Source: Candidatus Contendibacter sp.
GTDB lineage: Bacteria > Pseudomonadota > Gammaproteobacteria > Competibacterales > Competibacteraceae
DNA: 63,130 bases
Direction of reading: 5' to 3'
NCBI GenBank assembly: GCA_008933795.1
Contig: WBUJ01000005.1
Coordinates: 1-63,130, forward strand
A program made the position numbers and the translations under genes. Below are positions 8,975 through 62,569 of this stretch, one piece after another (position 1 is the first letter of the stretch; each line of letters starts with the position of its first letter). The notes beneath the pieces were generated by a model that saw nothing but the letters and a program-made list of their open reading frames with translations, had not been told where the DNA came from and made no database searches.

Positions 8975-8975
8975 G

Positions 8976-11080: not shown

Positions 11081-11090
11081 GAGGTTACTT

Positions 11091-15123: not shown

Positions 15124-15150
15124 GAATCTGGAAAATCTGGAAGATACCAG
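15124..15150 (+). repeat. Imperfect duplicate of the nosZ 5' coding region
   Basis: 27 bases matching nosZ positions 15280-15306 at 24 of 27, lying 156 bp upstream in the nnrS-nosZ gap (15034-15247). The flank to the left has weaker similarity to the nosZ start. It looks like a relic of a tandem duplication. Confidence 0.6.
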
Positions 15151-15161
15151 TTTGTTCTCTA

Positions 15162-15200
15162 TCTTCCCAGGCGGGAGAGGAGAGGGGGTAAGGGAGAAAC
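15162..15200. repeat. REP-like GC repeat upstream of nosZ
   Basis: TCTTCCCAGGCGGGAGAGG followed by AGAGGGGGTAAGGGAG, a degenerate member of the palindrome family. It lies about 50 bases before the nosZ start. No FNR-type box was found in this gap. Confidence 0.5.
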
Positions 15201-15247
15201 TGTGAGTGTAAATTGAAGTCACAACAAAAAACCAACTTGCGGAGATT

Positions 15248-17185
15248 ATGGCAATGAGCGATACCGAACATAAATCACCGAATCTGGAAAATCCGGAAAA
15301 CACCAGCCGGCGCAAATTCCTGGGTGCGGCGGCGCTGACGGGCCTGGCTGGCGCCGGGCTGGCGACCGGTCTGGCTGCCCTCGACCCGGCCCAGGCCAAG
15401 GAAGAGGAGGAAGACGAGAGCCGGGAACACGGCAAATTCGAGGTGCCGCCGGGACAACTGGACGACTACTACATCTTCTCCAGCGGCGGCCATTCCGGCG
15501 AAGCGCGCATCTACGGCTCGCCCTCCGGGCGTACCATCAAGCGGATTCCCGTGTTCAACATCGACCCGATGGTCGGTTGGGGTATCACCAACGAGTCCAA
15601 GAAAATCCTTGGCACCAAACCGGACGGATCGCTCAAGTACATCACGGGCGATACTCACCACATCCACGGCTCCTACACCGACGGAACCTACGACGGCAAG
15701 TACCTGTGGATCAACGACAAGATTCATGGCCGGCTGGCGCGCATCCGCATGGACTACATGGAATGCGACAAGATCACCGAACTGCCGAACATCCAGGGTT
15801 TTCACGGCCTGTTCCCGGACAAGCGCGATCCGGTGGATCCCAAGATCAACCACACCACCCGGGTGTTCTGCGGCGGCGAGTTCCATATTCCGTTGCCCAA
15901 CGACGGGCGGGACATGGACGATCCCAAGAAATGGGCCTGCCTGTTCACCTGCGTGGACGCCGAAACGATGGAGCCACGCTGGCAGTGCAAGCTCAGCGGC
16001 AACATGGACTTGGTCGCCACCTCCTACGACGGCAAGTTGGCGGCGGCCAACCAATACAACACCGAAGGCGGCGCGATTTACACCGACATGATGTCGGCGG
16101 AACGCGACGCAGTGGCGTTCTTCCACATCGAGCGGATCGAAAACGCCATCAAGGCCGGCAAGTTCATCACCATCGGTGATTCCAAGGTGCCGGTGGTGGA
16201 CGGGACCAAGGACGCCAATCAGGACCCCAAGACTGCGCTGGTCCTTTATGTGCCGGTGCCCAAGAATCCGCACGGCGTCAACATCACCCCCGACGGTAAA
16301 TACTTCGTCTCCTCCGGCAAGCTGTCGCCGACCGCGACTGTGACTGCGACCGATCTGGTGCATAAGTGGTTTGCCGGCGAACTGAAAGACCCGCGCGATA
16401 CCGTGGTGGCGGAACCGGAAATCGGCCTGGGTCCGTTGCACACCGGCTTCGACGACAAAGGCAACGCCTACACCACCCTGTTCCTCGACAGCCAGATCGT
16501 CAAGTGGAACATCGAAAAAGCCATCGCCCAGTTCAAGGGCGACAAGAAGGCGCAGCCGGTTTTGGATCGGATCGACGTGCATTACCAGCCCGGCCATGGC
16601 TACACCTCGATGGGCGAGACCAAGGAAGCCGACGGCAAGTTCTTCAATTCCGGCAACAAGTTCTCCAAGGATCGTTTCCTGCCGGTGGGTCCGCTGCATG
16701 TCGAAACCGAGCAGTTGATCGACATCAGCGGCGACAAGATGAAGCTGATTCACGATCACACCGCCTATCCCGAACCGCACGACGCCATCATCGTCCGCCG
16801 CGATCTGGTCAAGACCAAGCAGATTTACAGCATGGACGAATTCCCGAACGCGGTGAAGAACTTTGCCGACAGTCGGGTGGAGCGTAACGGCAACAAAGTC
16901 ACGATTTATCTGGCCTCAATCGCACCGATGTACAGCATGAACGATTTCAAGGTCAAGAAAGGCGACGAAGTCACCATCATCCTGACCAACCACGATAAGG
17001 TCGAGGATCTGACGCACGGGTTCGCCATTCCCAAATATGACATTTGCTTTATCGTCAACCCGCAGCAGACCGCCTCGGTAACCTTCATTGCCGATAAGCC
17101 GGGGCTATACTGGTGCTATTGCACGCATTTCTGTCATGCGCTGCATTTGGAAATGCGCAGCAGAATGCTGGTTGAATCGGCCTGA
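15248..17185 (+). CDS. nosZ: Nitrous-oxide reductase, Tat-exported (clade I)
   Basis: Periplasmic copper enzyme reducing N2O to N2. 645 residues. The twin-arginine signal SRRKFLGAAAL (20-30) marks the Tat-exported clade. DTHHIHG at 135-141 supplies CuZ histidines and EPHDAIIV another. The C-terminal cupredoxin domain has the CuA motif with Cys625, Cys629, His633 and Met636. Ribosome site GGAG at 15241-15244 supports ATG 15248. It precedes nosR here, the nosZRDFYL order, rather than following it. A strong hairpin lies between the two. Confidence 0.97.
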   Translation: MAMSDTEHKSPNLENPENTSRRKFLGAAALTGLAGAGLATGLAALDPAQAKEEEEDESREHGKFEVPPGQLDDYYIFSSGGHSGEARIYGSPSGRTIKRIPVFNIDPMVGWGITNESKKILGTKPDGSLKYITGDTHHIHGSYTDGTYDGKYLWINDKIHGRLARIRMDYMECDKITELPNIQGFHGLFPDKRDPVDPKINHTTRVFCGGEFHIPLPNDGRDMDDPKKWACLFTCVDAETMEPRWQCKLSGNMDLVATSYDGKLAAANQYNTEGGAIYTDMMSAERDAVAFFHIERIENAIKAGKFITIGDSKVPVVDGTKDANQDPKTALVLYVPVPKNPHGVNITPDGKYFVSSGKLSPTATVTATDLVHKWFAGELKDPRDTVVAEPEIGLGPLHTGFDDKGNAYTTLFLDSQIVKWNIEKAIAQFKGDKKAQPVLDRIDVHYQPGHGYTSMGETKEADGKFFNSGNKFSKDRFLPVGPLHVETEQLIDISGDKMKLIHDHTAYPEPHDAIIVRRDLVKTKQIYSMDEFPNAVKNFADSRVERNGNKVTIYLASIAPMYSMNDFKVKKGDEVTIILTNHDKVEDLTHGFAIPKYDICFIVNPQQTASVTFIADKPGLYWCYCTHFCHALHLEMRSRMLVESA

Positions 17186-17203
17186 TCCCCTCAACCGGGC
17201 GCG

Positions 17204-17223
17204 GGACGGGGGAAACCCCGTCC
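17204..17223 (+). terminator. Hairpin with GAAA loop between nosZ and nosR
   Basis: Eight-bp GC stem (17204-17211 with 17216-17223) closed by a GAAA tetraloop, then TGTCGCTTTT. The T run is short, so partial termination or 3'-end protection of nosZ mRNA is likelier than full termination. Confidence 0.6.
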
Positions 17224-17235
17224 TGTCGCTTTTGC

Positions 17236-19437
17236 ATGGCCTTCCTCATGAATGCTCAAATGTCTGTCCCTTGGCGCCCCACGGCGCTGGGTATTTTGCT
17301 CGCCCTGTTCGCCGTCTTGCTGTTCCCCCTGATTGCGACCGCTTCTTCCTATGAAGCCCCGCTACCGGTGCAATTGTCCACCGACCCCGATCTATGCGCC
17401 CACGCACCCTGCAAGGACGTGATGCCGGACGCCGACAGCTTTTCCACCCGCAAGGGCAAGCCGGCTTATGTCGAGGCGTACCGCAACCGGAAATTGATCG
17501 GCTATGTCTTTCTGTCCACCGACATCGTGGACATTCCCGCCTATTCCGGCAAACCCGTGGTCACGCTGCTGGGCATGGATGCGGAAGGTAAAATCGTTGG
17601 GGTGAAGATTCTCAAGCACAGTGAGCCGATTCTGCTGGTCGGCATCCCAGAGGGGGAACTGACCAAGTTCATCAAGCAGTTCGTGGGACATTTCGCCTGG
17701 GATAAGGTGGAGATCGGCAGGGCGCGCAGCGGTGACGGTTATGTCGGTATTGACGCGATCACCGGCGCGACCGTGACCGTAATCGCGCAAAATCAGGTCG
17801 TCATGCGCAGCGCCTACGAAATCGCCAAGCAAACCGGTATCGTCAAACCCATTCCCAAACCGCAGGCGAAATTTACCGGCATCCAGGAAAAGCTGGGTTG
17901 GGAGGACTTGATCAAGGAAGGCAGTGTTCAGCACTTGCGGGTCATGCCGAAGGATTTGGACATGGGCGACGACAAGGAACCCTACATTGATTTGTACTTT
18001 GGCTATTTGAATGCGCCCAATGTGGGACGCAACATTCTCGGTGAGCGCAATTATCAGCGATTGATGGCTGATTTGAAGCTGAACGAGCACGCCATTTTTA
18101 TCGTCGCCAATGGTAGTAGTTCCTTCAAAGGCTCCGGCTTCGTGCGCGGCGGCATTTACGACCGCATTCAGGTCTCGCAGGAAATGGACAGCTTCACCTT
18201 CCGCGACACCGATTATCTCAATCTCTACAGCATTGCCGCCGCTGGGGTGCCGCGTTTCCGTGAATCCGGCATCTTCATCATTCGCAGTCCCAGTTTCAGC
18301 GCCGCCTATCCCTGGAGTCTGGTGTTTCTGGGTAACAAGCAGGACAAGGAAACCGGGGCCAAGACGTTCATCAATTTCGACCGGGAATACTGGCTGGCGC
18401 CGCGCTATCTGGAAGGCGGCCGCCCGGAAGTCATCAAGCCCGATCCGACCTGGCTGCGGGTGTGGAAGGCGAAGTGGCTGGAAATCACCTTGTTTGTTCT
18501 CTTGCTGGCTGGTGCAACCGTGACCCACGTGATGCGGGACAAACTGGTGCGGCGGGCCAATCGGAAAGACAAGCGTTGGGTGACTTATCCCAAATACTTC
18601 TTCTGGATCGCCAGCATTCTCTTTGTCGGCTATTACGCGATGGCGCAGCCGAGCATTACCCAAATTCTGACCTGGTTCCACTCAATCATTTATCAGTGGA
18701 AATGGGAGTTGTTTCTGTCCGATCCGCTCATCTTTATTTTCTGGTGGTTCATCATCATCACCGTGTTTATCTGGGGGCGGGGACTGTTCTGCGGCTGGCT
18801 GTGTCCTTATGGCGCATTGACTGAAATGGCCTACAAGGTTTCGCGCGCTCTGGGCCTCAAACGCTTCCAGTTCTTCCTGCCCAAGCCGTTGCACGACAAG
18901 CTGAAGTGGGTCAAGTACGGGATATTTTTCGTGTTGCTGGTTGTGTCGTTCTTCTCGATAGGCCTAGCGGAAAAATTGGCCGAGGTCGAGCCGTTCAAGA
19001 CGACGTTCCTAGTTGGCGTTTTGAACCGTACTTGGCCATTCATCCTGTTCTGGGTGGTGCTGTTCGGCGCTTCGATGTTCATGGAGCGGCCGTTCTGCAA
19101 ATATCTTTGTCCACTGGGCGCGGGGCTGGCGATTCCCTCGCACTTGCGCCTGATCGCGTTGAAGCGCAAACCCGAATGTCAAACCTGCAAGGCCTGCGCG
19201 GTCGGCTGCGGTTCGCTGGCGATTGATCAGCAGGGTCGAATTGATCAGCGCGAGTGTATGTTGTGCATGGACTGCATGATCCTGTATTACGACACTCATG
19301 CCTGTCCGCCGTTGTCCAAGGAACGCAAGCGGCGCGAGAAGGCGGGACTGCCGCTGACGCCGATTTCTTCAAAGGGTTATTTCATTCCGGTTGACCAGAT
19401 CGGTGGGAGAAAGGTGGCGGCGGCGAGTGGGCGCTGA
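17236..19437 (+). CDS. nosR: NosR, membrane flavo-iron-sulfur protein for N2O reduction
   Basis: 733 residues. Supplies electrons to and is needed for expression of NosZ. A signal/TM segment comes first (about 15-38), then a periplasmic FMN-binding domain with the flavinylation motif DAITGATVT (about 175-183). Several TM helices follow from about residue 412. There are two CxxxCP motifs (CGWLCPYG, CKYLCPLG) and a ferredoxin-like tail with CQTCKACAVGC and CMLCMDC. Attachment of FMN needs an ApbE-type transferase (NosX/ApbE), which is not in this window. Confidence 0.95.
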   Translation: MAFLMNAQMSVPWRPTALGILLALFAVLLFPLIATASSYEAPLPVQLSTDPDLCAHAPCKDVMPDADSFSTRKGKPAYVEAYRNRKLIGYVFLSTDIVDIPAYSGKPVVTLLGMDAEGKIVGVKILKHSEPILLVGIPEGELTKFIKQFVGHFAWDKVEIGRARSGDGYVGIDAITGATVTVIAQNQVVMRSAYEIAKQTGIVKPIPKPQAKFTGIQEKLGWEDLIKEGSVQHLRVMPKDLDMGDDKEPYIDLYFGYLNAPNVGRNILGERNYQRLMADLKLNEHAIFIVANGSSSFKGSGFVRGGIYDRIQVSQEMDSFTFRDTDYLNLYSIAAAGVPRFRESGIFIIRSPSFSAAYPWSLVFLGNKQDKETGAKTFINFDREYWLAPRYLEGGRPEVIKPDPTWLRVWKAKWLEITLFVLLLAGATVTHVMRDKLVRRANRKDKRWVTYPKYFFWIASILFVGYYAMAQPSITQILTWFHSIIYQWKWELFLSDPLIFIFWWFIIITVFIWGRGLFCGWLCPYGALTEMAYKVSRALGLKRFQFFLPKPLHDKLKWVKYGIFFVLLVVSFFSIGLAEKLAEVEPFKTTFLVGVLNRTWPFILFWVVLFGASMFMERPFCKYLCPLGAGLAIPSHLRLIALKRKPECQTCKACAVGCGSLAIDQQGRIDQRECMLCMDCMILYYDTHACPPLSKERKRREKAGLPLTPISSKGYFIPVDQIGGRKVAAASGR

Positions 19438-19449
19438 ACGGCGAACTGA

Positions 19450-20721
19450 ATGAAAAAGTTTTTGAGAACAACGGGTTGGCTGGTCCTGCTCGCCGCTCTA
19501 TGGCTCGACAGGGCCACGGCGGCGGAATGGACCGTCCAGCCCGGTGAATCCATCAGTGCGGCGGTACAGGCGGCGGCAGCGGGCGACACCGTCAAGGTGG
19601 AGCGCGGCTATTACGTGGATCATGTGGTGATTGATAAGCCGCTACGGTTGCAAGGCGTCAACCGTCCCACCATCAGCGGCGACAACCAGGGCGACGTGAT
19701 CCGCGTCAAGTCGCCCGATGTCGTGATTGATGGCTTCATCATCCGCGACAGTGGCAGCGATCTCACCGCCCAGAATGCCGGCATCTATGTGGAACCGGGG
19801 GCGCATCGCGCCATCATCCGCAACAACGATTTCGCTTATACCCTGTTTGGGATGTGGCTGGAAAAGGCCAATGAGGTCGAAGTCACCAATAATCTGATTA
19901 CCGGCAAGCGGGATTTCGCCTCCGCGCAACGCGGCAACGGCATTCAGCTTTACAACTGTTATGACGCCAAAATCATTGGCAACAACATCAGTTTTGTCCG
20001 CGATGGCATTTATGTGGACGTGTCATTCCGAATCCTGTTTCGCGGCAACAAGATGCACCACGTGCGCTATGGCACTCACTACATGAACTCCCACGATAAT
20101 ATCTGGGAGGAGAATGACGCCTATAGCAATCGCGGCGGACTAGCGCTGATGGAAGTGCGCCGGCAAATTGTCCGTAATAACCGTACCTGGGATAATTCCG
20201 ATCACGGCATCATGCTGCGCACCATTCAGGATTCAGTCGTCGAGAACAATATCATCGTCGGCAACAGCAAGGGCTTTTTCATCTACGACGCCGAATACAA
20301 TGTCCTGAAGGGCAATCTGGTGATGGGGAACCGGATCGGCGTGCATTTGTGGGCGGGTTCGATTAACAACGACGTGGATCATAACGACTTTATCCAAAAT
20401 CATAACCAGATTCGCTATGTCGCCACCCGTAACGAGCTATGGGGCAAGGGCAAGGGCAATTACTGGAGCAATTACGTGGGCTGGGACGCTGATGGCGATG
20501 GTATTGGCGATACGCCGTATGAAGCCAATGATGTCGTAGATCGGCTGAACTGGAAATATCCGCTGGTCAAACTGCTGTTGAACAGCCCGGCGGTGCAGAG
20601 TTTGCGCCTGATTGCCCGGCAGTTTCCGTTATTGCGCGGTCCCAGCGTCAGGGATAATAACCCCAGGATGCTTCCTTTTCGTTCCAACTGGAGTGATTGG
20701 CTTGGCATACAACGTCATTGA
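19450..20721 (+). CDS. nosD: NosD, periplasmic copper-site maturation protein
   Basis: 423 residues with signal peptide (about 1-24, ATAAEW) and a right-handed beta-helix built from repeated N-N-x-I type turns (e.g. IIRNNDFAYTLFGMWL, EVTNNLITG, VVENNIIVGNSKGFF). With NosF and NosY it is needed for CuZ-site assembly of NosZ. The conserved GKGKGNYWSNYVGWDADGDG motif is present near residues 336-355. The 3' end overlaps nosF by about 20 bases. Confidence 0.95.
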   Translation: MKKFLRTTGWLVLLAALWLDRATAAEWTVQPGESISAAVQAAAAGDTVKVERGYYVDHVVIDKPLRLQGVNRPTISGDNQGDVIRVKSPDVVIDGFIIRDSGSDLTAQNAGIYVEPGAHRAIIRNNDFAYTLFGMWLEKANEVEVTNNLITGKRDFASAQRGNGIQLYNCYDAKIIGNNISFVRDGIYVDVSFRILFRGNKMHHVRYGTHYMNSHDNIWEENDAYSNRGGLALMEVRRQIVRNNRTWDNSDHGIMLRTIQDSVVENNIIVGNSKGFFIYDAEYNVLKGNLVMGNRIGVHLWAGSINNDVDHNDFIQNHNQIRYVATRNELWGKGKGNYWSNYVGWDADGDGIGDTPYEANDVVDRLNWKYPLVKLLLNSPAVQSLRLIARQFPLLRGPSVRDNNPRMLPFRSNWSDWLGIQRH

Positions 20722-50076: not shown

Positions 50077-50382
50077 CTATAGGCCAAAGTTCCTTCTTCC
50101 CTCTTGCTGACTTTTCCACCGCAGCGCTGCCCGGGCCAGAGCATGGGACGCGAGCGGCAGCGTCAGCAGCAACACGATCAACAGCAGCGCCAGTCGTGCG
50201 AGCCAGGCCGGCTCGGGCATCAGCAACCCGGCGCCCAAAATGAACGCGAACAGCGCCAGGGTGCCGGCCTTGGTGGCAGCGTGCTGGCGGGACAACGCGT
50301 CGGGCAGGCGCACCACGCCCCAAGCGGCGATCAGCAGGACAACCGTACCCAGCAGGCACAACCCCTGTCCCAGGAGATTCAT
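50077..50382 (-). CDS. mrpG: Mrp Na+/H+ antiporter subunit G
   Basis: 101 residues, three TM helices. WGVVRLPDALSRQHAATKAGTLALF is the MrpG/MnhG signature. Last gene of the mrp operon. ATG 50382 is preceded by GGAGGAGG and overlaps the mrpF stop by 4 bases. Downstream lies the AAA-ATPase relic. Confidence 0.9.
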   Translation of the reverse strand: MNLLGQGLCLLGTVVLLIAAWGVVRLPDALSRQHAATKAGTLALFAFILGAGLLMPEPAWLARLALLLIVLLLTLPLASHALARAALRWKSQQEGRRNFGL

Positions 50383-50654
50383 GACGGTTCCTCCTCCCGC
50401 ACGGCGCACCGGTCAACCCAGCGCGCCCAGGCCAGAGTCCCGACGAACCCGACCAGCGCCAGACCCAGCGCCACATCCAGAAAAGCGGTGCGACCGGTGA
50501 TCAGGGCAGCAGCGATGCCCAGCAGCACCGCCACGGCGAACAGCAAATCCAGCGCCACCACCCGGTCGGCGGGCGTCGGTCCCTGCAGCAGCCGGTAAAA
50601 TCCCAGCAGCGCCGCCAGTCCCGCCAGGACCACGCAGCCATACAGCAGCATCAT
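50379..50654 (-). CDS. mrpF: Mrp antiporter subunit F
   Basis: 91 residues, three hydrophobic segments, with LLQGPTPADRVVALDLL, the MrpF hallmark. Small integral membrane subunit, part of the Na+/H+ antiport complex. Overlaps both neighbours by a few bases. Confidence 0.9.
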   Translation of the reverse strand: MMLLYGCVVLAGLAALLGFYRLLQGPTPADRVVALDLLFAVAVLLGIAAALITGRTAFLDVALGLALVGFVGTLAWARWVDRCAVREEEPS

Positions 50655-50992
50655 CGTTGTTCCTCTTCGAACAAAGCCCGCACCGGTCGCTCGAAATGGC
50701 GACGAATCGCCGCCAGCGCGGCCTCGGCCTGGGCGAGGTCCAGAACGTGCAGCAGAAGCTCCCGCCGTGCGGGATCGAGATCCACCGTGGTGGTGCCTGG
50801 AGTCAGGGTAATCAGCAGCCCCAACGCGACTGCGCCGATCTCGCTCAGCCCCTCGTCGTAGGCCAGACGCACCAGTCCCGGTTGCCGGGTCGGCCCGCCG
50901 CGCAGGATCAGCCAGGCCGTAGCCCAGCCGGAGAGCACCACTTCCAGCGGGAAGCGCATTAGCAACGATAAAGCCGCGCGCCAGCGGTTCAT
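50651..50992 (-). CDS. mrpE: Mrp antiporter subunit E
   Basis: 113 residues; one or two TM segments then a soluble tail. ALGLLITLTPGTTTVDLDPARREL and the downstream VLDLAQ are characteristic of MrpE/MnhE. Start ATG 50992 overlaps the mrpD stop. Confidence 0.88.
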   Translation of the reverse strand: MNRWRAALSLLMRFPLEVVLSGWATAWLILRGGPTRQPGLVRLAYDEGLSEIGAVALGLLITLTPGTTTVDLDPARRELLLHVLDLAQAEAALAAIRRHFERPVRALFEEEQR

Positions 50993-52452
50993 GGCGTGCT
51001 TCCTCCTCTCGCCAGACTCGCGGCGGCTGCCTCCGCATAGTGGATGAACGGCTCCGGCCACAGCCCCATCACCAGGATCAGCGCCGTCAGCAGAATCACC
51101 GCTCCATACGCGGGTCCCAGTCCGGCGACCGGCGCGATCCCATCGCCGGTCGGATGCGGTTTCCAGAACGCCTCCAGGCCGATCTTGAGCATCGAATACA
51201 GGGTCAACAGACCCACCGCCAGCGCCGCGCCGCCCCACAGCCAGCGTTCCTGGGCGAAGCTTTCCCGCACCAGCAGGTACTTGCCCCAGAACCCCGACAG
51301 CGGCGGCACGCCGACCAGCGCCAGCGCAGCGATCAGGAACAGCAGCGCGAGTCCGGGCCGCGCGGCGTACAGGCCGCCGATCCGCCGCAGATCGTGGTGG
51401 CCGGCCAACGCCCAGATCAGTCCGGCGATCAGGAACAGACTGGCCTTGGCCGCGATGTTATGCAGGGTGAAAAACAGCGTAGCCGCCGCGCCCGCCGGAC
51501 TGGCCAAAGCGATGCCGAGCAACAGGTAACCGATCTGGCTGACGATGTGAAAGGCCAGAATCCGCCGCAAATCCCAGTGATAGACCGCGCCCAGTCCTCC
51601 TGCGACCATGGTGAGCAGCGCGATCCCGCCCAGCGCTTCGTACAGGACGGCGGGCGCGGCGCTGAAAACCTCGCCCAGCAGTCGCAGCAGGGCGTAGACG
51701 CCGACCTTGGTCAACAGCCCGCCGATCAGGGCCAGCACCGGCGCCGGCAGGGTGTGATAGCTGGCCGGCAGCCAGAAGAACAGGGGGAAAGCGCCCGCCT
51801 TGAGCAGCAGCGCCAGCCCCAGCAGGGCAACGTAAACCGGCAGCACGGCGGCCAGTTCGGGACGCTGGGCTGCCTGATGCAGGGCGCTGAAATTGAGGTG
51901 GCCGGTCGCGCCGTACAGCAGGGCGACGGCGATCAACAGCAACAGGGTTCCCACCAGGTTCAGGGCCAGGTACGCGAATGCAGCCTGCAACTGGCGCGGT
52001 TCGCCACCGTGAACCAGCAGGCCCAGCACCGCGATCAGCATCAGTTCGAACCAGACGTACAGGTTGAACAGATCGGCGGTCACGAACGCCGCCCCAACCG
52101 CCGCCAGCAGGCCGTGGAGGAGCGGATGCAGGGTCGGCGTCTCCGGGGCCGAATCGGCGCGGCTGGTTTGGTACAACAACACCGCCACGCCCAGCACGGC
52201 GGTGATGAACACCAAAGCTGCGCTCAACCGGTCGGCGGCGAGCTCGATGGCGTAGGGCAGCGGCCAGCCGCCCACGGCCAGCGAAAGCCGGCCGGTTTGT
52301 TCCACCGCGATCAGCAGCGCGCCGGCACAGAACGCCAGCAGCAGCGCGCCGGCCAGGCTGACGGTTCGGCGCACCCGCACCGGCTGGCGGTGAAGCAGGG
52401 CGATCAGCAGCGCGGTCGCCAGCGGGACCAGCAGCGGGCTCAGCACCAGCAC
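50989..52452 (-). CDS. mrpD: Mrp antiporter subunit D (NuoM/N-like)
   Basis: 487 residues, about 14 TM helices. Proton-channel subunit related to complex I. Contains WFELMLIAVLGLLV (key Glu), GAFPLFFWLPASYH with Lys upstream, and LLTKVGVYALLRL. GTG 52452 is chosen as the start; the longer frame to 52563 reads mrpC sequence out of frame and is not credible. Confidence 0.9.
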   Translation of the reverse strand: MLVLSPLLVPLATALLIALLHRQPVRVRRTVSLAGALLLAFCAGALLIAVEQTGRLSLAVGGWPLPYAIELAADRLSAALVFITAVLGVAVLLYQTSRADSAPETPTLHPLLHGLLAAVGAAFVTADLFNLYVWFELMLIAVLGLLVHGGEPRQLQAAFAYLALNLVGTLLLLIAVALLYGATGHLNFSALHQAAQRPELAAVLPVYVALLGLALLLKAGAFPLFFWLPASYHTLPAPVLALIGGLLTKVGVYALLRLLGEVFSAAPAVLYEALGGIALLTMVAGGLGAVYHWDLRRILAFHIVSQIGYLLLGIALASPAGAAATLFFTLHNIAAKASLFLIAGLIWALAGHHDLRRIGGLYAARPGLALLFLIAALALVGVPPLSGFWGKYLLVRESFAQERWLWGGAALAVGLLTLYSMLKIGLEAFWKPHPTGDGIAPVAGLGPAYGAVILLTALILVMGLWPEPFIHYAEAAAASLARGGSTP

Positions 52453-52462
52453 GGCGACGCGC

Positions 52463-52846
52463 TCATTCCAACACCGCCGGCTTGACCGGATCGGTGTCGG
52501 GCGGTTCGGCGGCCCGCCACTGGTTGGTATCGTCGCTGGCGCCTTGCTGGCGCAGCCGCGCACCCAGCACCAGCGTGAAGCACAGCAGCGCGAAACTGAT
52601 GACGATGGCGGTCAGCACCAGCGCCTGCGGCAACGGATTGGCCGCCGTCGCCGCCAGTTCCGTCGCGCCCGCCGGGAGGATGGCCGGTTGCAGCGGCCCG
52701 AACCGGCCGGCGGCGAACACGATCAGATTCGCCGCGCTGCCCAGCACCGCCAGGCCGACGATGCAGCGGAACAGGTCGCGCGACAGGGTCAGGTAAACCC
52801 CGGCGGCGGCGATCAGGGCGATAGTCAGCGCCAGCAGCGCGCTCAT
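52463..52846 (-). CDS. mrpC: Mrp antiporter subunit C (NuoK-like)
   Basis: 127 residues, three TM helices. GVYLTLSRDLFRCIVGLAVL followed by NPLPQALVLTAIVISFALLC is the MrpC/NuoK pattern. A hydrophilic tail of about 20 residues (PPDTDPVKPAVLE) ends it. Overlaps mrpB by 4 bases. Confidence 0.92.
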   Translation of the reverse strand: MSALLALTIALIAAAGVYLTLSRDLFRCIVGLAVLGSAANLIVFAAGRFGPLQPAILPAGATELAATAANPLPQALVLTAIVISFALLCFTLVLGARLRQQGASDDTNQWRAAEPPDTDPVKPAVLE

Positions 52847-53286
52847 GGCGCTCCTCCCCGGTCCATTTCCCCCCCGCGCAGCAGCGCCAGCACGTAACCG
52901 GCCAGGGTTCCCCACACCGCCAGGAAGACGCCGATATCGAACAGCAGCACCGTCGACAGCGGCAGCTCGGCGAATCCCAGCGGCAGGTTCCACCAGAGAT
53001 GAGTGAGATAGGGCCGGCCCAGAGCCAGCGCCGGCAGGCCGCTGAGCAGCGCCAGGGCCGCGCCCAGCAGGGCCAGCGGTATCGGTCCCAACGGCACCCG
53101 TCGCTGCGCCGGCGTCGCGCCGAACACCATGGCGTAGGCCGCGGTGCCCGCTACGGCCACCAGCCCGCCGATGAAACCGCCGCCGGGCGCGTTGTGACCG
53201 CGCAGCAGAATCCACACTGCCGCCGCCAGCAGCAGGCCATACAGCGGACCGGTGGTCCGTTCCAGCAGCAGGGCCCGGCCGGTCAC
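52843..53286 (-). CDS. mrpB: Mrp antiporter subunit B
   Basis: 147 residues, four TM helices. RGHNAPGGGFIGGLVAVAG is the MrpB/MnhB hallmark, with PLSTVLLFDIGVFLAVWG in the second half. GTG 53286 overlaps the mrpA stop (GTGA). Confidence 0.93.
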   Translation of the reverse strand: MTGRALLLERTTGPLYGLLLAAAVWILLRGHNAPGGGFIGGLVAVAGTAAYAMVFGATPAQRRVPLGPIPLALLGAALALLSGLPALALGRPYLTHLWWNLPLGFAELPLSTVLLFDIGVFLAVWGTLAGYVLALLRGGEMDRGGAP

Positions 53287-55583
53287 GGCGCGGCCTCCCG
53301 TCGGGCACGCAGCAGCCCGCCCAGCAAGGGCAGGGCCGCCAGCAGGGAAAAGACGACCACGGTGATTTCGCCCAGGGTATCGAGGGCGCGGAAATCCACG
53401 ATGATGACGTTGACCACGTTATGACCGTACGCCTGGGGCAGGCTGGTGGCTCCAAACCAGTCCGCCAGGGTCGTATCCGGCGGCAGCGCCAGCATCCCCA
53501 GCAGCAGGACCAGGATACCGACGCCGCTGGCCGCCGCCAGCAGCGCATTGCGCCAATACGGTTCATCCGCCGCCAGCGCAGGCGGCGGTCCGAAGCGCGG
53601 CAGAACGGCAGCGGCGACCACCACCAGCGCGGTTTCCACCGCGAACTGGGTGAAAGCCAGATCGGGCGCGCCGGCGAACAGGAACAGCACCGCGCTGCCA
53701 TAACCGACCAGCCCGCTGGTCATCAGCAGCGCCATGCGGTCGCGCACTGCGACGCTGGCCGCCGCGCCGGCCAGCATCAGCACCGCCGCCGTCAGCCACG
53801 CCCCGCTCTGCGCCGGCCAGTCGCCGCCGTCCCGCGCCCAGTCCTGGAGCCTGCGCGCCCAGTCCTCGGCCGGATTTAACCCGGTCGCCAGACCCGCGCC
53901 CACGGCCAGAAGCAGCAAACCCGCCAGGGTGGCGCGTAGATAACCGGCCAGCCGGCCGTGTTGCAGGGCGCGGGTTTGCCAGGCAGCGACGCGGGGCAGA
54001 CTTTCCAGCAGAAACCGATAGCCGGCGGTCGGGCCGAAGCGGTCCAGCCAGCGGGTAAAATGCAGCGCGCGATACAGCCGGTCCCAGACCAGGAACAGCC
54101 CCAGCCCGATCAGCAGGGTGATCTCGGTGGCGGTGAGGACCGTGCCGAAGACGTAGGAAGCCTGCACGTCCACCGCGCCCAGTTCCAGCGCCATCGCCTG
54201 GGTCGCCGCCGCCAGCAGAGGATCGGCCAGATCGGGCAGAAACTCGAACTCGATGCCGATCAGGGCGAGCAGCAGCGGCGGCAGAATCATCCGCCAGGGC
54301 GCTTCGTGAATCCGCTCCCCGGGCCATTCCGGGGGGCCACCAAACACCCGCACCGCCGCCACCGCCGCCACCGCCACGGCGGTCGCGTTGACGAACAGGG
54401 TGGCGTAACCGATCGCGTCGAGCAGCTCGGCGTCTTCCTTGGCGACGGTGATCAGATCCTTGGCGACGAAGCCGAACGACAGCGGCAGACCGGCCATGGA
54501 CAGCCCGGCCAGCATCGCCACCGCCGCCGTCCAGGGCATGGCCCGCCACAGTCCCATCAGCCGGTCAATCGAACGGGTGCCGGTGGCGTGATCAATGTTG
54601 CCGACCACCATGAACAGCGGCGCCTTGTACAGGGCGTGGGCGAACAGAAAGGCCACCGCTGCCAGGCTCGCGCCCGGATTGGGCAAACCGATCAGCAGGG
54701 TCAGGGTGCCCAGGGCCGAGATCGTGGACCCGGCCAGGATACGTTTGAGATCGCGCTCCCGCAGCGCCAGCACCGCGCCCCAGACCGCTGTGAACGCACC
54801 GACGCCGACCAGCGCGCTCTCCCAGAGCCAGAGATCGTTGAAAACCGGGTCCAGCCGGGCCATGAGGTAGATGCCCAGCTTGACCAGGGTCGCGGAGTGC
54901 AGATAGGCGCTCACCGGGGTGGGCGCGGTCATGGCGTTGGGCAGCCAGAAATGGAAGGGAAACTGGGCGGATTTGGTGAAACAGCCCGTCAGCAGCAGGA
55001 TCAGGGCGGCAGGTAGCCGTGGGTCGGCGGCCAGCGCCTGCTTCTGGGCGATGAGGGCCTGGAGCGAGTAGCTTCCCGTGATGTCGCCCAGCAGCAGGAT
55101 GGCCGCCAGCAGCGCCAGCCCGCCGCTCAGCGTCACCAGCAGCGCCTGGCGGGCGGCGTTTCGCGCCGCTTCATCCTCATGATGGAAGCCGACCAGCAGG
55201 AAGGAGGTCAGGCTGGTCAGCTCCCAGAAGACGAACACGATCAGCAGATGATCGGCGCTGACCGCCCCGATCATCGCCGCCATGAACGCCAGCAGAATCA
55301 GGAACAGCCGGCCCCGGCGCGGCTCGTGGGCCAGATAGCCGCTGGCGTAGACGCACACCAGGGCGCCGATGCCGGTGATCAGCGCCAGGAACTGGGCGGA
55401 CAGGCCGTCAACGTGAACCGCTAACTCCACACCCAGGCTAGGAACCCAGGTCCAGGCGCCGCGCCAGGGCAGCGGGTGATGCAACAGGCCCCAGACCAGG
55501 CCGGCAAATCCCGCCAGCGGCAGCAACGCCACCCACAGGAAGCGGGAATCCCAGCCAGGGGCATGAGCAGCGGTGGCGGACAT
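53283..55583 (-). CDS. mrpA: Mrp antiporter subunit A (NuoL-like)
   Basis: 766 residues, about 20 TM segments. NuoL-like core with FWELTSLTSFLLVGFHHEDEAARNAARQALLVT, in pieces, then FPFHFWLPNAMTAPTPVSAYLHSATLVKLGIYL. The C-terminal third (MLLMTSGLVGYGSAVLFLFAGAPDLAFTQF) is the MrpA-specific extension. First gene of mrpABCDEFG. The operon would exchange Na+ for H+, balancing Na+ export by the decarboxylase at 37.9-41.6 kb. Confidence 0.95.
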   Translation of the reverse strand: MSATAAHAPGWDSRFLWVALLPLAGFAGLVWGLLHHPLPWRGAWTWVPSLGVELAVHVDGLSAQFLALITGIGALVCVYASGYLAHEPRRGRLFLILLAFMAAMIGAVSADHLLIVFVFWELTSLTSFLLVGFHHEDEAARNAARQALLVTLSGGLALLAAILLLGDITGSYSLQALIAQKQALAADPRLPAALILLLTGCFTKSAQFPFHFWLPNAMTAPTPVSAYLHSATLVKLGIYLMARLDPVFNDLWLWESALVGVGAFTAVWGAVLALRERDLKRILAGSTISALGTLTLLIGLPNPGASLAAVAFLFAHALYKAPLFMVVGNIDHATGTRSIDRLMGLWRAMPWTAAVAMLAGLSMAGLPLSFGFVAKDLITVAKEDAELLDAIGYATLFVNATAVAVAAVAAVRVFGGPPEWPGERIHEAPWRMILPPLLLALIGIEFEFLPDLADPLLAAATQAMALELGAVDVQASYVFGTVLTATEITLLIGLGLFLVWDRLYRALHFTRWLDRFGPTAGYRFLLESLPRVAAWQTRALQHGRLAGYLRATLAGLLLLAVGAGLATGLNPAEDWARRLQDWARDGGDWPAQSGAWLTAAVLMLAGAAASVAVRDRMALLMTSGLVGYGSAVLFLFAGAPDLAFTQFAVETALVVVAAAVLPRFGPPPALAADEPYWRNALLAAASGVGILVLLLGMLALPPDTTLADWFGATSLPQAYGHNVVNVIIVDFRALDTLGEITVVVFSLLAALPLLGGLLRARREAAP

Positions 55584-55707
55584 GGCGGTGGGGCATCCTC
55601 GGGCGATTTTGGTAACAGCCTGTTATGTCCACCGGACGCAGCGCAAGGTTCCCGGCGGCGGTCATCGGGTCTTGCCTGCTTTCAAGCCCGTGCAACTACG
55701 GACCTGC

Positions 55708-56064
55708 TTAACTCCATCGGCCCGAGAGGATCGTGTAACAGCCGGCCAGGGCATAGATCAGGATCGTGGCGCCGGCCAGTCCCACGCCGAATACCAGCGC
55801 CATGAGGAACCAGTCGTCCGGACCGCCGGCATCGGTGAACCCGGCAGACGAGACCTTGGCCATCAGCACCAGAGACAGGGCGCCGCCGACCAGGTCGAGG
55901 AGTTCGGCGCGCACCAGCCGCTGGCTGACAATACCGCGCTCCTTCACGAGCACGACGACGAACACGCCCACGCCGAACACCGCCAGCGCCACGAGCACCC
56001 ACAGCAACGGTCCCAGCATTTCCTGGAACACTGCGACGAACATCAGGGGATCAACTTCTTTCAT
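55708..56064 (-). CDS. DUF5368-like membrane protein
   Basis: 118 residues, three TM helices. KEVDPLMFVAVFQEMLGPLLWVL then GFTDAGGPDDWFLMALVF. This pattern recalls DUF5368, seen near Mrp-type antiporter genes. Function unknown; 124 bases upstream of mrpA and on the same strand, so a shared transcript is likely. Confidence 0.65.
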   Translation of the reverse strand: MKEVDPLMFVAVFQEMLGPLLWVLVALAVFGVGVFVVVLVKERGIVSQRLVRAELLDLVGGALSLVLMAKVSSAGFTDAGGPDDWFLMALVFGVGLAGATILIYALAGCYTILSGRWS

Positions 56065-56304: not shown

Positions 56305-57618
56305 TCACCCACAGCTCTTCTTCCACGCCACGCTGGCCAACCCTTCGTGCAGCGCGCGGCGATAAATTCGCAAGACGCTCAATAAGTTAATCCCCAGCCA
56401 CGCGCCAGTGACGCCCAAAGCCAGCGCAGCGGGATAGGTAAAGACGGCGGGATAAACCGCGGCCGCCAGCAGTAACAACAACGCTGTCAGATAAGCCCAC
56501 CGCTGTCGCCGGATACGCGCTTCCGGCAGCAACTGCTTCATGTTGGGCACTTTCGCCCGCCGGAACAGTTGCGCCTGCAAGTGGAACCAGGCCAGAAACG
56601 GCACGATCTTGTACAACATGCCGTTGATGACCGCGACCGCAAAGCCCAGGATCGGCAGAATTCCCAGCAACCATTCGGCTGGCGACGCTGGCCCCAGCGC
56701 GGGAATCCACAATGTCGCTAGCCAAAGCAACGCGCTCGCTAGCAGGCTGGCCATGCTGGCTCGCCAATAGCCCAGGGTGGGATCGCCAATCTTGCGGCGG
56801 CGCTGCGCCAGCAGGTGGAGGGTCGTCAGGGCGAACAGAGCGATGCCCGCCGCCAGCGCCGTGCTCGTCAGTCGCGCCGCCGTTTCCCAATCGCCGAGCA
56901 TCAGCACCGACCACGCCGCCAGCAATGCCGCCATCAACGGCGCAAAGCCACGACCGAACCATTGCGGATAAGGCGGGGTGATTTGAAACATCGGCACGAC
57001 CTGATAGGCCACGCCCGCCACCAGCAGCAGCGTCCATCCCGCCAAACCCCAGGCAGCGTGCAGTTGGGTCATCGCCACGACCGGCAGACTCCATCCCCAG
57101 CCGAAATAACCGCCGAGCGACAGACCCAGCCCGACCGTGATCAGCAAGGCCCCCAACGCGCAGCGCAGCGCAATCACCGTCCCACTGACCACCGGCGCGC
57201 GCCACAAGGCGAGATGGATGGCGATCAGGGCAACGCCAAAGCCCAGGCCGAGCAGCCACCATGCGACCTGAAACCAAGCGGGGACGCCACTCAAAAAAGC
57301 GACGGTCAGAGCCAGCGCGCCCAGCGTCAGGGGAATATGAATCAGCGCCGCTGTCAATTGGGGACGGGGCACGACCACGCCCACCACCACCGGCAACATT
57401 TGCAGCAACGCGCCCAGCATGACCTGAGCCATGAAACCCAGGGTGAACAGATGGGCCAGCGCCAGAGTGACCGGCAGCCAGCGGCTGGCGAAAATCTCCG
57501 GGCCTTGCCACAACAGCAGCAACGCGGCCAGCACCAGAAACCAGGGCGCGGTCAGAAAAAACCGCAGCGGCACGCTGAACGGCGGCGCCTGCTCGAGCGA
57601 CAACCCAGCCGAGTTCAT
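56305..57618 (-). CDS. Polytopic membrane protein linked to NO-response genes
   Basis: 437 residues, about 12 hydrophobic segments with scattered His (LALAHLFTLGFMAQVMLGAL, TQLHAAWGLAGW, FLAWFHLQAQLF). The His-in-helix layout recalls heme-copper or NnrS-like proteins, but no catalytic set is clear. It is coupled by ATGA to the DUF2249 gene and followed on the same strand by no other gene. I infer a role with NO or heme, unproven. Confidence 0.65.
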   Translation of the reverse strand: MNSAGLSLEQAPPFSVPLRFFLTAPWFLVLAALLLLWQGPEIFASRWLPVTLALAHLFTLGFMAQVMLGALLQMLPVVVGVVVPRPQLTAALIHIPLTLGALALTVAFLSGVPAWFQVAWWLLGLGFGVALIAIHLALWRAPVVSGTVIALRCALGALLITVGLGLSLGGYFGWGWSLPVVAMTQLHAAWGLAGWTLLLVAGVAYQVVPMFQITPPYPQWFGRGFAPLMAALLAAWSVLMLGDWETAARLTSTALAAGIALFALTTLHLLAQRRRKIGDPTLGYWRASMASLLASALLWLATLWIPALGPASPAEWLLGILPILGFAVAVINGMLYKIVPFLAWFHLQAQLFRRAKVPNMKQLLPEARIRRQRWAYLTALLLLLAAAVYPAVFTYPAALALGVTGAWLGINLLSVLRIYRRALHEGLASVAWKKSCG

Positions 57619-57839
57619 GGCGGCCAAATCAAAACTTCAAAATGATCGTCGGCAACCGCCGTGGTTTCGTAGCGGTAATGGTAACGACGCAGGATGTCGT
57701 AGAGCGGATAAGGCTGGCGGTGGATCAAAAACCGCACCCGCCGCCCTGGTTGCAACTCGTCCAGCGCCGCCAAAACCCGCTCCATGGGTTCCGGCGGGGC
57801 CAAACCCCGCCCGTCCACCACGATTTCGGAAGTGTCCAT
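57615..57839 (-). CDS. DUF2249 small protein
   Basis: 74 residues. VVDGRGLAPPEPMERVLAALDEL and VRFLIHRQPYPLYDILRR are the DUF2249 pattern. Members are often encoded next to hemerythrin and NO-related genes. Start ATG 57839 is 6 bases after the hemerythrin stop; the end overlaps the membrane-protein gene. Confidence 0.88.
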   Translation of the reverse strand: MDTSEIVVDGRGLAPPEPMERVLAALDELQPGRRVRFLIHRQPYPLYDILRRYHYRYETTAVADDHFEVLIWPP

Positions 57840-57844
57840 GAGGA

Positions 57845-58288
57845 TTAACCCGCCGGCAGGTCCCGCATGGCCTGGATCACCGACCTGACGGCGTCGCCCA
57901 GAAACCGATCGCACATCGGATAAAGAATCTGCTCCTCCTTGATATTGTGCTGCTGCATCAGGATCAGCAGCGTTTCGGCTTGGCCCAGAAACTCCTCCAG
58001 GTCGCCGCTGGCGAGCGTGCCATCCATCCCGGCAAGCGTTTCTCGCATTTGCTGGTGTTCCAGCCGCATCACCCGCGTCGGCCCCATGGCATTGCCGCTG
58101 GCCTGTTCGAAGGCGGGAAACAGCATGGCCTCTTCCTTGTGGAAATGATGCTCCATCACGGCCTGGAACTCCCGGAAAGTCGCCCGACAATGGGCGAGAT
58201 CGCCCGCTTGGGCCGCCTCCTCGGTGGTGGCGAAGCTTTCATCGCAGCAGCGATGTTCGTTGGCGAGAAATTCGGCGATGGTGGCCAT
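57845..58288 (-). CDS. Hemerythrin HHE-domain protein
   Basis: 147 residues. Diiron-type ligands in order: HRCCDE (His ~12), HHFHKEEAMLFPAFE, LEHQQMRE and HNIKEEQILYP. Similar proteins bind O2 or NO or serve iron-sulfur repair under nitrosative stress. The start ATG 58288 opens a minus-strand operon (hemerythrin, DUF2249, membrane protein), divergent from norC with an FNR-type box between. Confidence 0.9.
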   Translation of the reverse strand: MATIAEFLANEHRCCDESFATTEEAAQAGDLAHCRATFREFQAVMEHHFHKEEAMLFPAFEQASGNAMGPTRVMRLEHQQMRETLAGMDGTLASGDLEEFLGQAETLLILMQQHNIKEEQILYPMCDRFLGDAVRSVIQAMRDLPAG

Positions 58289-58351: not shown

Positions 58352-58365
58352 TTGACCTTTATCAA
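58352..58365. promoter_or_regulatory. FNR/DNR-type box between hemerythrin and norC
   Basis: TTGACCTTTATCAA matches TTGAT-N4-ATCAA at nine of ten fixed positions. For norC a start near 58400 would place GAATAT (58388-58393) at -10. It could serve both directions. Confidence 0.75.
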
Positions 58366-58459: not shown

Positions 58460-58885
58460 ATGAGCGCATCCTTCACCAAATCCATGGCGCGAAACATCTT
58501 CTACGGCGGCACGTTGTTTTCGGTGCTGCTGTTTCTCGCCCTCACCTTCCACACCACCTGGCAACTGCCAGGCCGCGTTCCCACCGCGACCCCGGCTCCG
58601 GAGGTCGCTCGCGGCAAGCATTTGTGGGAGACCCGCAACTGCATCGGCTGTCACACGCTGCTGGGTGAAGGCGCCTACTTTGCCCCGGAACTGGGCAACG
58701 TCCACATTCGGCGCGGCCCGGATTTCATCAAGGCCTGGATCAAGGCGCAACCCACCAAGGCGCCGGGTCGTCGGCAAATGCCGCAGTTCAATTTCAGCGA
58801 CCAGCAACTGGACGACATCGTGGCGTTCCTGAAATGGACCTCGGAAATCAATACCGAAAAATGGCCCCCGAACGTCGAAGGCTGA
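58460..58885 (+). CDS. norC: Nitric oxide reductase cytochrome c subunit
   Basis: 141 residues. An N-terminal TM anchor (about 13-32) and a heme c site CIGCH, followed by LLGEGAYFAPELGNV, the NorC signature. Membrane-anchored on the periplasmic side, passing electrons to NorB. ATG 58460 precedes MSASFTKSMARN; an upstream in-frame stretch is leader. Confidence 0.96.
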   Translation: MSASFTKSMARNIFYGGTLFSVLLFLALTFHTTWQLPGRVPTATPAPEVARGKHLWETRNCIGCHTLLGEGAYFAPELGNVHIRRGPDFIKAWIKAQPTKAPGRRQMPQFNFSDQQLDDIVAFLKWTSEINTEKWPPNVEG

Positions 58886-60328
<1,443 letters not shown>

Positions 60329-60376: not shown

Positions 60377-61180
60377 ATGAAACCCCTCATTGAGCCGCAA
60401 TCGCAGGAAGTACCGTATTACGAGCCGTTCGGCGACGAGTGCGCGGTGTTCGAAGCGGCTTGGCGCAACCATCTGCCGCTGCTGGTCAAGGGTCCCACCG
60501 GCTGCGGCAAGACGCGCTTCGTCGCCCATATGGCGGCGCGGTTGGGGTTGCCGCTGCACACCGTTGCCTGTCACGACGACCTGTCCGCCGCCGATCTGGT
60601 GGGGCGGCATCTATTGCACGGCGGCGCGACGGTCTGGTGCGATGGGCCGCTGACCCGGGCGGTGCGCGAGGGGGGGATTTGCTATCTCGACGAGGTGGTG
60701 GAAGCGCGCAAGGATACGACGGTGGTGTTGCATCCGCTGGCCGACGACCGGCGGGTGCTGCCCATCGAGCGCACCGGCGAAATGTTGCCGGCGCCGCCGA
60801 GTTTCATGCTGGTGGTGTCCTACAACCCCGGCTATCAGAACCTGCTGAAGAGTCTGAAGCCCTCCACCCGCCAACGGTTTCTCGCCCTGCGCTTCGACTT
60901 TCCCAGCCCGGAGCGGGAGCGGGCCATCGTCGTGGGCGAAACGGGCTGCGACGCCGTCACCGCCGGCCAATTGGTCAAGCTGGCGGGCGCCTTCCGCGCC
61001 TTGAAGGAACACGATCTGGACGAGGTTCCCAGTACCCGGTTGCTGGTCTACGCCGCGCAACTGATTCGCGACGGCATGGATCGCATTACCGCCTGCCGGG
61101 TGGCGCTGGTGGAGGCGCTGACCGATGATGAGCCGACCGCCGCTGCGCTGCTGGAGGTGGTGAATGCCAGTTTCGCCTGA
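60377..61180 (+). CDS. norQ: NorQ/CbbQ-type AAA+ ATPase
   Basis: 267 residues. MoxR-type AAA+ ATPase with GPTGCGKTRFVAHMA (Walker A), CYLDEVVEARKDTTV (Walker B) and SYNPGYQNLLKSLKPSTRQRF. With NorD it inserts the nonheme iron into NorB. Its last bases overlap the next gene. Confidence 0.95.
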   Translation: MKPLIEPQSQEVPYYEPFGDECAVFEAAWRNHLPLLVKGPTGCGKTRFVAHMAARLGLPLHTVACHDDLSAADLVGRHLLHGGATVWCDGPLTRAVREGGICYLDEVVEARKDTTVVLHPLADDRRVLPIERTGEMLPAPPSFMLVVSYNPGYQNLLKSLKPSTRQRFLALRFDFPSPERERAIVVGETGCDAVTAGQLVKLAGAFRALKEHDLDEVPSTRLLVYAAQLIRDGMDRITACRVALVEALTDDEPTAAALLEVVNASFA

Positions 61181-61568
61181 AACGTTGGACGAGGCGTCAT
61201 CCCCCGGTCAAGGTCTCGCCATCGCCGCTGAATCGCTGTATTTGATCAACCTGCTGGTATTACCCGGTCCGGGCTTTCTGGCGCTGCTGTGGCTGTTCTT
61301 CCGCCAGCGGCGGGATGCTCCGCCGCTGGCGCGCGCCCATCTACGGCAAACGGTGTCGGCCAGTCTATGGGCGGGCGGGCTGCTGATTCTGGCCAATCTG
61401 CTCATTGTCGCCTTGGGTGGCTACGATTCCGGCTGGACCTGGGTCGTGGTCATTCTCTATTTCACCACCGCGCATACCACGCTGGTCGTCCTCGGTATCC
61501 TGGGACTGGCGCGGGCGCTGGCCGGCCAGTCGTATCGCTATCCTCTGGTGGGTAACCTGTTGCCATGA
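61164..61568 (+). CDS. Three-helix membrane protein inside the nor operon
   Basis: 134 residues with three hydrophobic segments (about 28-46, 68-86, 92-115) and RRDAPPLARAHLRQTVSASL between. The pattern recalls DUF4870-type proteins but the match is not certain. Overlaps norQ by 17 bases and the next gene by 4, so it is translated with them. A role in nor biogenesis is inferred from position only. Confidence 0.65.
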   Translation: MPVSPETLDEASSPGQGLAIAAESLYLINLLVLPGPGFLALLWLFFRQRRDAPPLARAHLRQTVSASLWAGGLLILANLLIVALGGYDSGWTWVVVILYFTTAHTTLVVLGILGLARALAGQSYRYPLVGNLLP

Positions 61569-62569
61569 CTCCCTTCGAACGCAAGCGCGTCCTGTATCAG
61601 AGCGGGTTCTTCATCCTGTTCATGTTCGCTCCAATCTTCGATCTGCTGCGCTTCGATCTGACCCAGGGCCACCTGATTGTGTTCGGCCAGCCGTGGACGT
61701 TGGGCCTGGGCGACTATCTGGCCGGACGGATCAGCAACACGCACATGGCGCTCAATATTCTGCTGCGGGTGATCGTGCCGATCCTGCTGCTGGCCACCGC
61801 CTTTCTGGGCATCGCCTGGCGCTGGGGCCGGTTGTATTGCGGCTGGATGTGCCCGCATTTCTCGGTGGTGGAAACCATCAACCAACTGGTGCGCAAGGCC
61901 AGCGGCAAGCAAAGCATCTGGGACAGGAAGCCGGGGCCGCCGTGGCATCCCGACGGCACGCCGGCTCCGACCGACGCCCGCTACTGGCTGTTGGCGATTC
62001 CCTTCGCGCTGGTCTTCGCCTTCCTGTGGGCGGTGGTGTTGTTGACCTACCTGCTGCCGCCGGTGGAGGTCTACGGCAACCTGTTCGATCTGACCCCGAC
62101 CCGCAATCAGGCGCTGTTCGTCGGCGTGGGCACGGCGGTGCTGTTCGTCGAATTCACCCTGGCCCGGCACCTGTTCTGCCGCTACGCTTGCGCGGTCGGT
62201 ATGTTTCAAAGCTTGGTCTGGATGGCCAACCGCCAGGCGATGGTGGTGGGTTATCAGCGCGAACGCGCCCGCGACTGCGCCAGTTGCCAGTCGTTCTGCG
62301 ATCACGTCTGCCCGATGCGGCTCAAGCCGCGCAACATCAAGCGGCTGATGTTTGCCTGCACCCAGTGCGGGCAGTGCATCGACGCCTGCGAAACTGTGCA
62401 GCGGAACAATCCCGACGGCAGTTTGCTGAACTGGATCGCCGGGCAACAGGCATTGCAAGCGGACGGCTCGCAGGGTCTACTGGTGAGTGAACCCGCCTCT
62501 CAAAAGTCCAAGATAGCGCCCAAGTCGCTCAACCTGACGGCGGCTTGTCCGCCAAGCTCGAACTTCTGA
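61565..62569 (+). CDS. CcoG/NosR-like membrane Fe-S protein in the nor operon
   Basis: 334 residues, about five TM helices. Cys motifs: CGWMCPH, CRYACAVGMFQ, CASCQSFCDHVCP and CTQCGQCIDACE, the last two being ferredoxin-like clusters. This resembles CcoG (copper-handling for cbb3 oxidase) and the NosR tail, but lacks the CcoG immunoglobulin-like end and the FMN domain. It may feed electrons or redox-handle metals for NorB. Function inferred. Confidence 0.8.
   Translation: MTPFERKRVLYQSGFFILFMFAPIFDLLRFDLTQGHLIVFGQPWTLGLGDYLAGRISNTHMALNILLRVIVPILLLATAFLGIAWRWGRLYCGWMCPHFSVVETINQLVRKASGKQSIWDRKPGPPWHPDGTPAPTDARYWLLAIPFALVFAFLWAVVLLTYLLPPVEVYGNLFDLTPTRNQALFVGVGTAVLFVEFTLARHLFCRYACAVGMFQSLVWMANRQAMVVGYQRERARDCASCQSFCDHVCPMRLKPRNIKRLMFACTQCGQCIDACETVQRNNPDGSLLNWIAGQQALQADGSQGLLVSEPASQKSKIAPKSLNLTAACPPSSNF

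Follow-up and report, generated by a model that had tools for sequence, protein, structure and literature searches.

Proteins of the DUF2249 family, which we take to be identical to COG4309, have already been linked in print to NO reductase and to oxidase homologues. The kind of association is known because, judging from excerpts of the two papers, Rodionov et al. (2005; PMC1274295) predicted COG4309 to be co-transcribed with nor genes, and PMC11218638 associates DUF2249 both with hemerythrins and with the heme-copper-oxidase superfamily, citing Pei et al. 2014 for the latter. The association drawn by Rodionov et al. is with nor itself, whereas in the locus described here the DUF2249 gene is the middle one of a separate operon, placed between the genes for a hemerythrin-like protein (Hr) and for a membrane protein that we call MemP. 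Excerpts of other papers describe hemerythrin-like di-iron proteins in NO responses (NorA, YtfE and DnrN; PMC9045102), a P. aeruginosa hemerythrin, Mhr, that binds O2 and is under Anr (PMC12403760), and an Accumulibacter hemerythrin, possibly not the protein considered here, that is an oxygen-detection member of the FNR regulon and rises in anaerobic stages (PMC6446978). For the Thermus DUF2249 proteins DrpA and DrpB, a part in nitrate signalling has been hypothesised, again according to an excerpt (PMC6282519).

The genes for Hr, the DUF2249 protein and MemP lie on the minus strand within positions 56305-58288 of Candidatus Contendibacter sp. contig WBUJ01000005.1, in a stretch of 63,130 nucleotides that was analysed as a whole and that we call the window (Table 1). 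The original prediction had described three coupled genes that are divergent from norCB and next to an FNR-type box, and the locus agrees with that description. Five nucleotides separate the Hr stop codon from the DUF2249 ATG, and the start codon of MemP overlaps the stop codon of DUF2249 in the sequence ATGA; translation is therefore probably coupled. The genes norC, norB and norQ, an ORF for a 134-aa membrane protein and a gene for a NapH/CcoG-like Fe-S protein are all on the opposite strand. Between Hr and norC, TTGACctttATCAA is the only exact site for TTGAY-N4-RTCAA, which we take to be the FNR/DNR-type consensus. Within norB, residues H55, H202, E206, H253, H342 and H344 are invariant among 20 aligned sequences and H254 is nearly so, and all of these presumably serve as ligands. 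The 134-aa ORF, which has a sub-threshold match to DUF4870, and the NapH/CcoG-like gene follow norQ at 61164-62569, and this pair is retained next to norQ in several relatives. Downstream of the trio, positions 50379-56064 of the minus strand encode a DUF5368 protein and hold long ORFs that look, by eye, like those of a multisubunit Na+/H+ antiporter.

Table 1. Features of the Hr-DUF2249-MemP locus and its divergent neighbours (window positions)
Feature	Position	Strand	Evidence
Hr, single-domain hemerythrin-like protein, 147 aa, candidate di-iron site	57845..58288	-	PF01814 E 2e-22
DUF2249 protein, 74 aa, TusA-like	57615..57839	-	PF10006 E 8.4e-17; coupling
MemP, 437 aa, 12-helix membrane protein, predicted heme-copper-oxidase fold	56305..57618	-	AlphaFold2, Foldseek, VIA-align
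FNR/DNR-type palindrome TTGACctttATCAA, between Hr and norC	58352..58365	.	exact pattern match
norC, divergent neighbour	58460..58885	+	cytochrome c PF00034 E 1.3e-13; adjoins norB
norB, divergent neighbour	58919..60328	+	COX1 PF00115 E 2.6e-77
norQ-type AAA ATPase	60377..61180	+	CbbQ_C PF08406 E 5e-30

Hr scores 80.4 bits against PF01814 (cut-off 25.3), and its residues H12, H48, E52, H78, H114 and E118 are identical in all 82 aligned sequences; from the family to which the protein belongs, these six would be the ligands of a di-iron site. Hr is hemerythrin-like, as are NorA, YtfE and DnrN, and YtfE provides the structural match: the only solved structures found in the PDB at E 0.01 were those of YtfE (best E 8.7e-4). 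It differs from YtfE in consisting of one 147-aa domain, and we rejected it as a YtfE/RIC equivalog, since it scores 46 bits where the YtfE cut-off is 254 and 40.2 bits where a second cut-off is 204.7. The DUF2249 protein aligns to the TusA structures 1dcj and 3lvj at E 0.02 and scores 25.7 bits against TusA PF01206, below the cut-off of 28.6; searched alone against the PDB, it gave a chance match only. In the window protein, proline takes the place of the cysteine of the TusA CPxP motif, and it does so too in 73 of the 81 sequences aligned; this makes sulfur transfer unlikely. With this cysteine absent and the PF01206 score below its cut-off, the identity of a TusA-type sulfurtransferase was rejected.

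No family in Pfam-A or NCBIfam matches MemP above its curated cut-off, and a relative of it that was scanned against NCBIfam matched no family either. Searching the PDB by sequence with the MemP profile gave one chance-level match (E 0.44), and a profile comparison of helix groups, at crude settings, found no internal repeats. AlphaFold2, run on MemP with 81 sequences, predicts 12 long helices at a pLDDT of 96.2, and Foldseek matched this model to cbb3 CcoN (E 4e-7) and to NorB (E 2e-4). The likeness to both extends over the whole length of the fold: VIA-align superposed the model on CcoN 8smr_E with a Z of 33.8 over 389 residues (2.8 Å) and on cNOR NorB 4xyd_A with a Z of 30.7 over 382 residues (3.5 Å). 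Profile comparison of MemP with NorB gave a weak similarity (E 0.01). On the basis of the model, we predict with high confidence that MemP adopts the 12-helix fold of heme-copper-oxidase subunit I and that most of the catalytic ligands are gone.

The original prediction had pointed to helices bearing His residues in the membrane protein. These residues are indeed invariant or nearly so: of 81 aligned sequences, the window's included, all have H56 (TM2) and H187 (TM6), 80 have H94 (TM3), and 79 have H346, near the far end of TM10. The description can now be sharpened to a predicted heme-copper-oxidase fold without the full set of catalytic ligands. Unlike CcoN and NorB, MemP lacks both a conserved His in TM7 and the His-x-His of TM10 (81 aligned sequences), and therefore no binuclear catalytic site of known type. 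Its positive charges are found mainly in the loops after even-numbered helices and at the C-terminus, a distribution that would put H56 and H187 near the periplasmic face and H94 and H346 near the cytoplasmic face. We infer that H56 and H187 are candidate heme ligands, which would make MemP a membrane heme protein, and the H94/H346 pair may have a role as well. The heme-copper-oxidase homologues of Pei et al. 2014 reportedly lack full catalytic sites; going by this description, they share with MemP the fold and the loss of most metal ligands. MemP, which may itself belong to one of those families, is described here with a fixed hemerythrin partner and with two His pairs that are placed toward opposite faces. 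Our literature search, whose scope did not extend to Pei et al. 2014, found no prior description of the fixed trio with its own box or of MemP as a family without a name that has an oxidase fold and two His pairs, and it found no biochemical test of Hr, DUF2249 or MemP.

NnrS (PF05940), a membrane protein of NO and denitrification regulons, resembles MemP weakly at the level of profiles (E 2.4e-4, probability 43%). MemP differs in giving no PF05940 match up to E 1 (cut-off 28 bits), and the source genome has a separate NnrS at 13852-15033. With no family match and a weak profile-profile link, we rejected MemP as an NnrS. Nor do we equate its TM2 His with an NnrS His: one alignment put it next to that residue and not on it, and a rerun gave another register.

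Co-occurrence analysis finds the trio outside the source genome, and the outcome that would have spoken against the original prediction, a lack of such co-occurrence, is clearly not what is seen. MemP is present in 26 of 59 genomes searched, counting the window's own, and among 22 neighbourhoods from these genomes tblastn located both Hr and DUF2249 next to MemP in 19 and at least one of the two in 21; in the remaining neighbourhood, tblastn did not recover MemP itself. When species-representative genomes were scanned with the MemP profile, at least 545 relatives were found, the best 80 of which were retained; by title, these are mostly from Beta- and Gammaproteobacteria, and the hosts of MemP relatives include Competibacter, Thiobacillus, Sulfuricella, Accumulibacter, Herminiimonas and Thiomargarita. 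Among 86 loci selected through MemP only (85 distinct, one contig having been entered twice), 81 have both partners no more than 1.5 kb away from MemP and on its strand, and the order Hr-DUF2249-MemP is kept in 79. In the other two (L079 and L083), Hr directly precedes MemP and the DUF2249 gene comes after it, beside a second membrane family. Two of the five loci without the full set are located at contig ends; in one, Hr was not found near MemP, and in two, DUF2249 was not. NorB or NorC was seen at 25 of the 86 loci, which is a minimum since many of the contigs are cut off early, and the trio is therefore a unit of its own.

The second membrane family consists of proteins of about 375 aa with a conserved HLHLN stretch (for example, L114:7153-8274). 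The member scanned had no Pfam or NCBIfam match, and profile comparison gave a weak similarity to MemP; it is possibly another oxidase-fold family. It adjoins norCB in five loci, L104 and L114 among them, and occurs elsewhere in L079, L083 and L081. In most of these eight loci a second DUF2249 gene lies next to it, and in L104 none was found.

For a wider view of gene content, we surveyed 184 sampled genomes of class Gammaproteobacteria, from 165 genera. MemP is present in 22, in every one of which DUF2249 is adjacent to it; in the 162 genomes without MemP, DUF2249 occurs anywhere at all in 12. NorB-type genes (called at E up to 1e-30) were found in 16 of the 22 MemP genomes versus 37 of the 162 others (p 6e-6) and cytochrome d1 in 14 versus 21 (p 8e-7), in Fisher tests that treat genomes as independent, with kinship covered only by the spread of the sample. 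One or the other type is present in 18 of the 22 genomes with MemP and in 41 of the 162 without it, and the tie of MemP to denitrification genes is thus statistically strong. The four MemP genomes with neither include one with NirK; the other three, with no match for NorB, d1 or NirK, comprise one that has NarG and two without a NarG match. In 11 of the 22 genomes, no more than 2.5 kb separates a MemP gene from one for NorB or d1; in one of these, G125, the MemP gene concerned is a second copy without DUF2249. This second copy (G125:C33:12027-13289) has no DUF2249 match alongside and lies 66 nt from a cytochrome-d1-family gene. MemP is absent from 37 of the 53 NorB genomes, which speaks against a tight functional tie, so that NO reduction does not need it; MemP as an essential NOR subunit was rejected.

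The neighbour clusters at other loci include NnrS, cytochrome d1, NirDL-type, NRDD, peptidase U32 and HemN-type genes, where each cluster is named from one representative and the clustering was built on scored gene calls. The NnrS cluster (14 non-Competibacter loci) is mixed with proteins of about 130 aa; members of NnrS length occur in about 8 of 66 loci, and the one in L130 is the only one confirmed by Pfam. On the window's own contig, positions 4248-20721 carry a nirS-type/cytochrome-d1 cluster, the NnrS gene mentioned above, nosZ, a nosR-like gene and nosD.

The box is also a recurrent feature. Of 80 loci (79 distinct promoter regions, given the contig that was entered twice), 53 have an exact box in the 300 nt that precede Hr, compared with about 2.3 expected from the density of the pattern across these loci, which is 0.029 exact sites per 300 nt when the promoter regions are counted in. 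Allowing up to one mismatch raises the count to 65, leaving 15 with neither, and in 42 of the 53 exact-box loci the box begins between 66 and 89 nt ahead of the Hr start. The window as a whole holds three exact sites versus 0.13 expected. One of them is at 5041, in front of the nirS-type gene, and another, at 14068-14081, is inside the nnrS reading frame. The trio has a strongly supported FNR/DNR-type box, as expected of an operon under such control, and the sequence of the box cannot tell FNR (oxygen) from DNR (NO).

Starting from the observed gene set, gene order, box and statistical link to nor and nir genes, we consider a role in NO the likeliest for the trio, and we give about an even chance to the specific proposal that Hr-DUF2249-MemP is a conserved FNR/DNR-regulon operon of denitrifying Proteobacteria that handles NO beside, and not inside, NO reductase. 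MemP, as a membrane heme protein with His56 and His187 as candidate ligands, would meet NO in the membrane; Hr, as a soluble cytoplasmic di-iron protein, would bind or react with it; and DUF2249 would be a small adaptor between the two. Together they would buffer or sense NO that escapes into the cytoplasm during nir and nor activity. Several findings weigh against this proposal: most NorB genomes lack MemP, three MemP genomes have no match for NorB, d1 or NirK, six loci have an oxygen-type context and five others have heme-A-synthase-type genes nearby, an Accumulibacter hemerythrin is placed in the FNR regulon, and the profile links of MemP to NnrS and NorB are weak. The original prediction had cast the three genes as an NO-response module. 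The unit, its conservation, the box and the link to denitrification all hold, while the response to NO as such is a step that we infer, because the box fits FNR or DNR, six of 34 linked regulators are of the Fe-S type, and bacterial hemerythrins can bind O2.

The regulators were identified as Crp/Fnr-type genes within 7.5 kb of the trio. Outside Competibacteraceae, 36 of 66 loci have one, or 34 when two mis-clustered long frames are set aside. They are of more than one type and are located on either side of the operon. The regulator cluster has 38 members; 34 were examined and four overlong frames omitted, two of which appear to be mis-clustered, and N-terminal read-through affects at least two of those examined. 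An N-terminal cysteine motif of the Fe-S type is present in six of the 34 and absent from 28, and it is also absent from the window's own Crp/Fnr regulator (4248-5015, divergent from nirS). The one motif-bearing regulator that was scanned, from Accumulibacter, is above the Fnr cut-off (245 versus 228 bits); two motif-less regulators that were scanned resemble FtrB best, at scores below the FtrB cut-offs, and are putative DNR at most. The six motif-bearing loci coincide exactly with the loci that hold a copper P-type ATPase gene, whose representative passes the TIGR01511 cut-off, together with a DsbD_2 gene. A copper P-type ATPase together with a DsbD-like gene resembles the maturation clusters of cbb3 oxidase, and this points to a context of oxidase maturation and oxygen control in these six, unlike the nor/nir contexts elsewhere. 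Heme-A-synthase-type genes are found near the trio in five further loci. Because of the mixed regulators and the six oxygen-type loci, it is likely that both DNR-like and Fnr control exist, depending on lineage.

These same six loci and their Fnr-like regulators speak for the main rival explanation, a microoxic oxygen module induced by Fnr and not by NO. Hr would bind O2 when its tension is low, and Hr and MemP together would either supply respiratory enzymes that are oxygen-sensitive or of high affinity, or protect them. It would also fit the O2-binding Mhr that, in the excerpt cited above, is under Anr, the HemN- and NRDD-type genes among the neighbours, and the fact that the fold closest to MemP is that of cbb3 CcoN. 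We regard it as possible but on balance unlikely: the association with NorB and d1 argues against it, as do the close linkage to these genes in half of the MemP genomes surveyed and the predominance of regulators without the Fe-S motif.

Two further readings are less likely because of the evidence that stands against each. The trio could help to assemble or mature NorCB or other heme enzymes, with MemP as heme carrier and Hr as iron source, as its divergent placement from norCB in the source genome's family of genomes would suggest, along with its position beside d1-heme genes or heme-A-synthase-type genes at other loci; the limited number of loci at which NorB or NorC was seen, even as a lower bound, and the many NorB genomes that lack MemP make this improbable. 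We also give little credence to a signalling module in which MemP and DUF2249 sense NO or nitrate and relay their state to a regulator, since, despite the frequent Crp/Fnr-type gene nearby and the role hypothesised for DrpA and DrpB, Pfam and NCBIfam find no output domain in Hr, DUF2249 or MemP and the regulators vary in type and side.

Within the favoured reading, that of NO handling beside NO reductase, a far bolder version can be drawn up, which we think has only a slim chance of being right: a transmembrane heme wire, with His56/His187 on the periplasmic and His94/His346 on the cytoplasmic side, would feed electrons to a cytoplasmic di-iron Hr docked through DUF2249, which would reduce NO to N2O on the cytoplasmic side. 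If true, the trio of heme wire and Hr would be a new kind of NO-consuming system, built on an oxidase fold minus its binuclear centre. More generally, the MemP family, with its 545 or more relatives, offers a case for what oxidase folds do once catalysis has been lost, one in which two His pairs are kept and the hemerythrin partner is nearly fixed, and Hr-DUF2249-MemP gives denitrification research a defined, testable operon.
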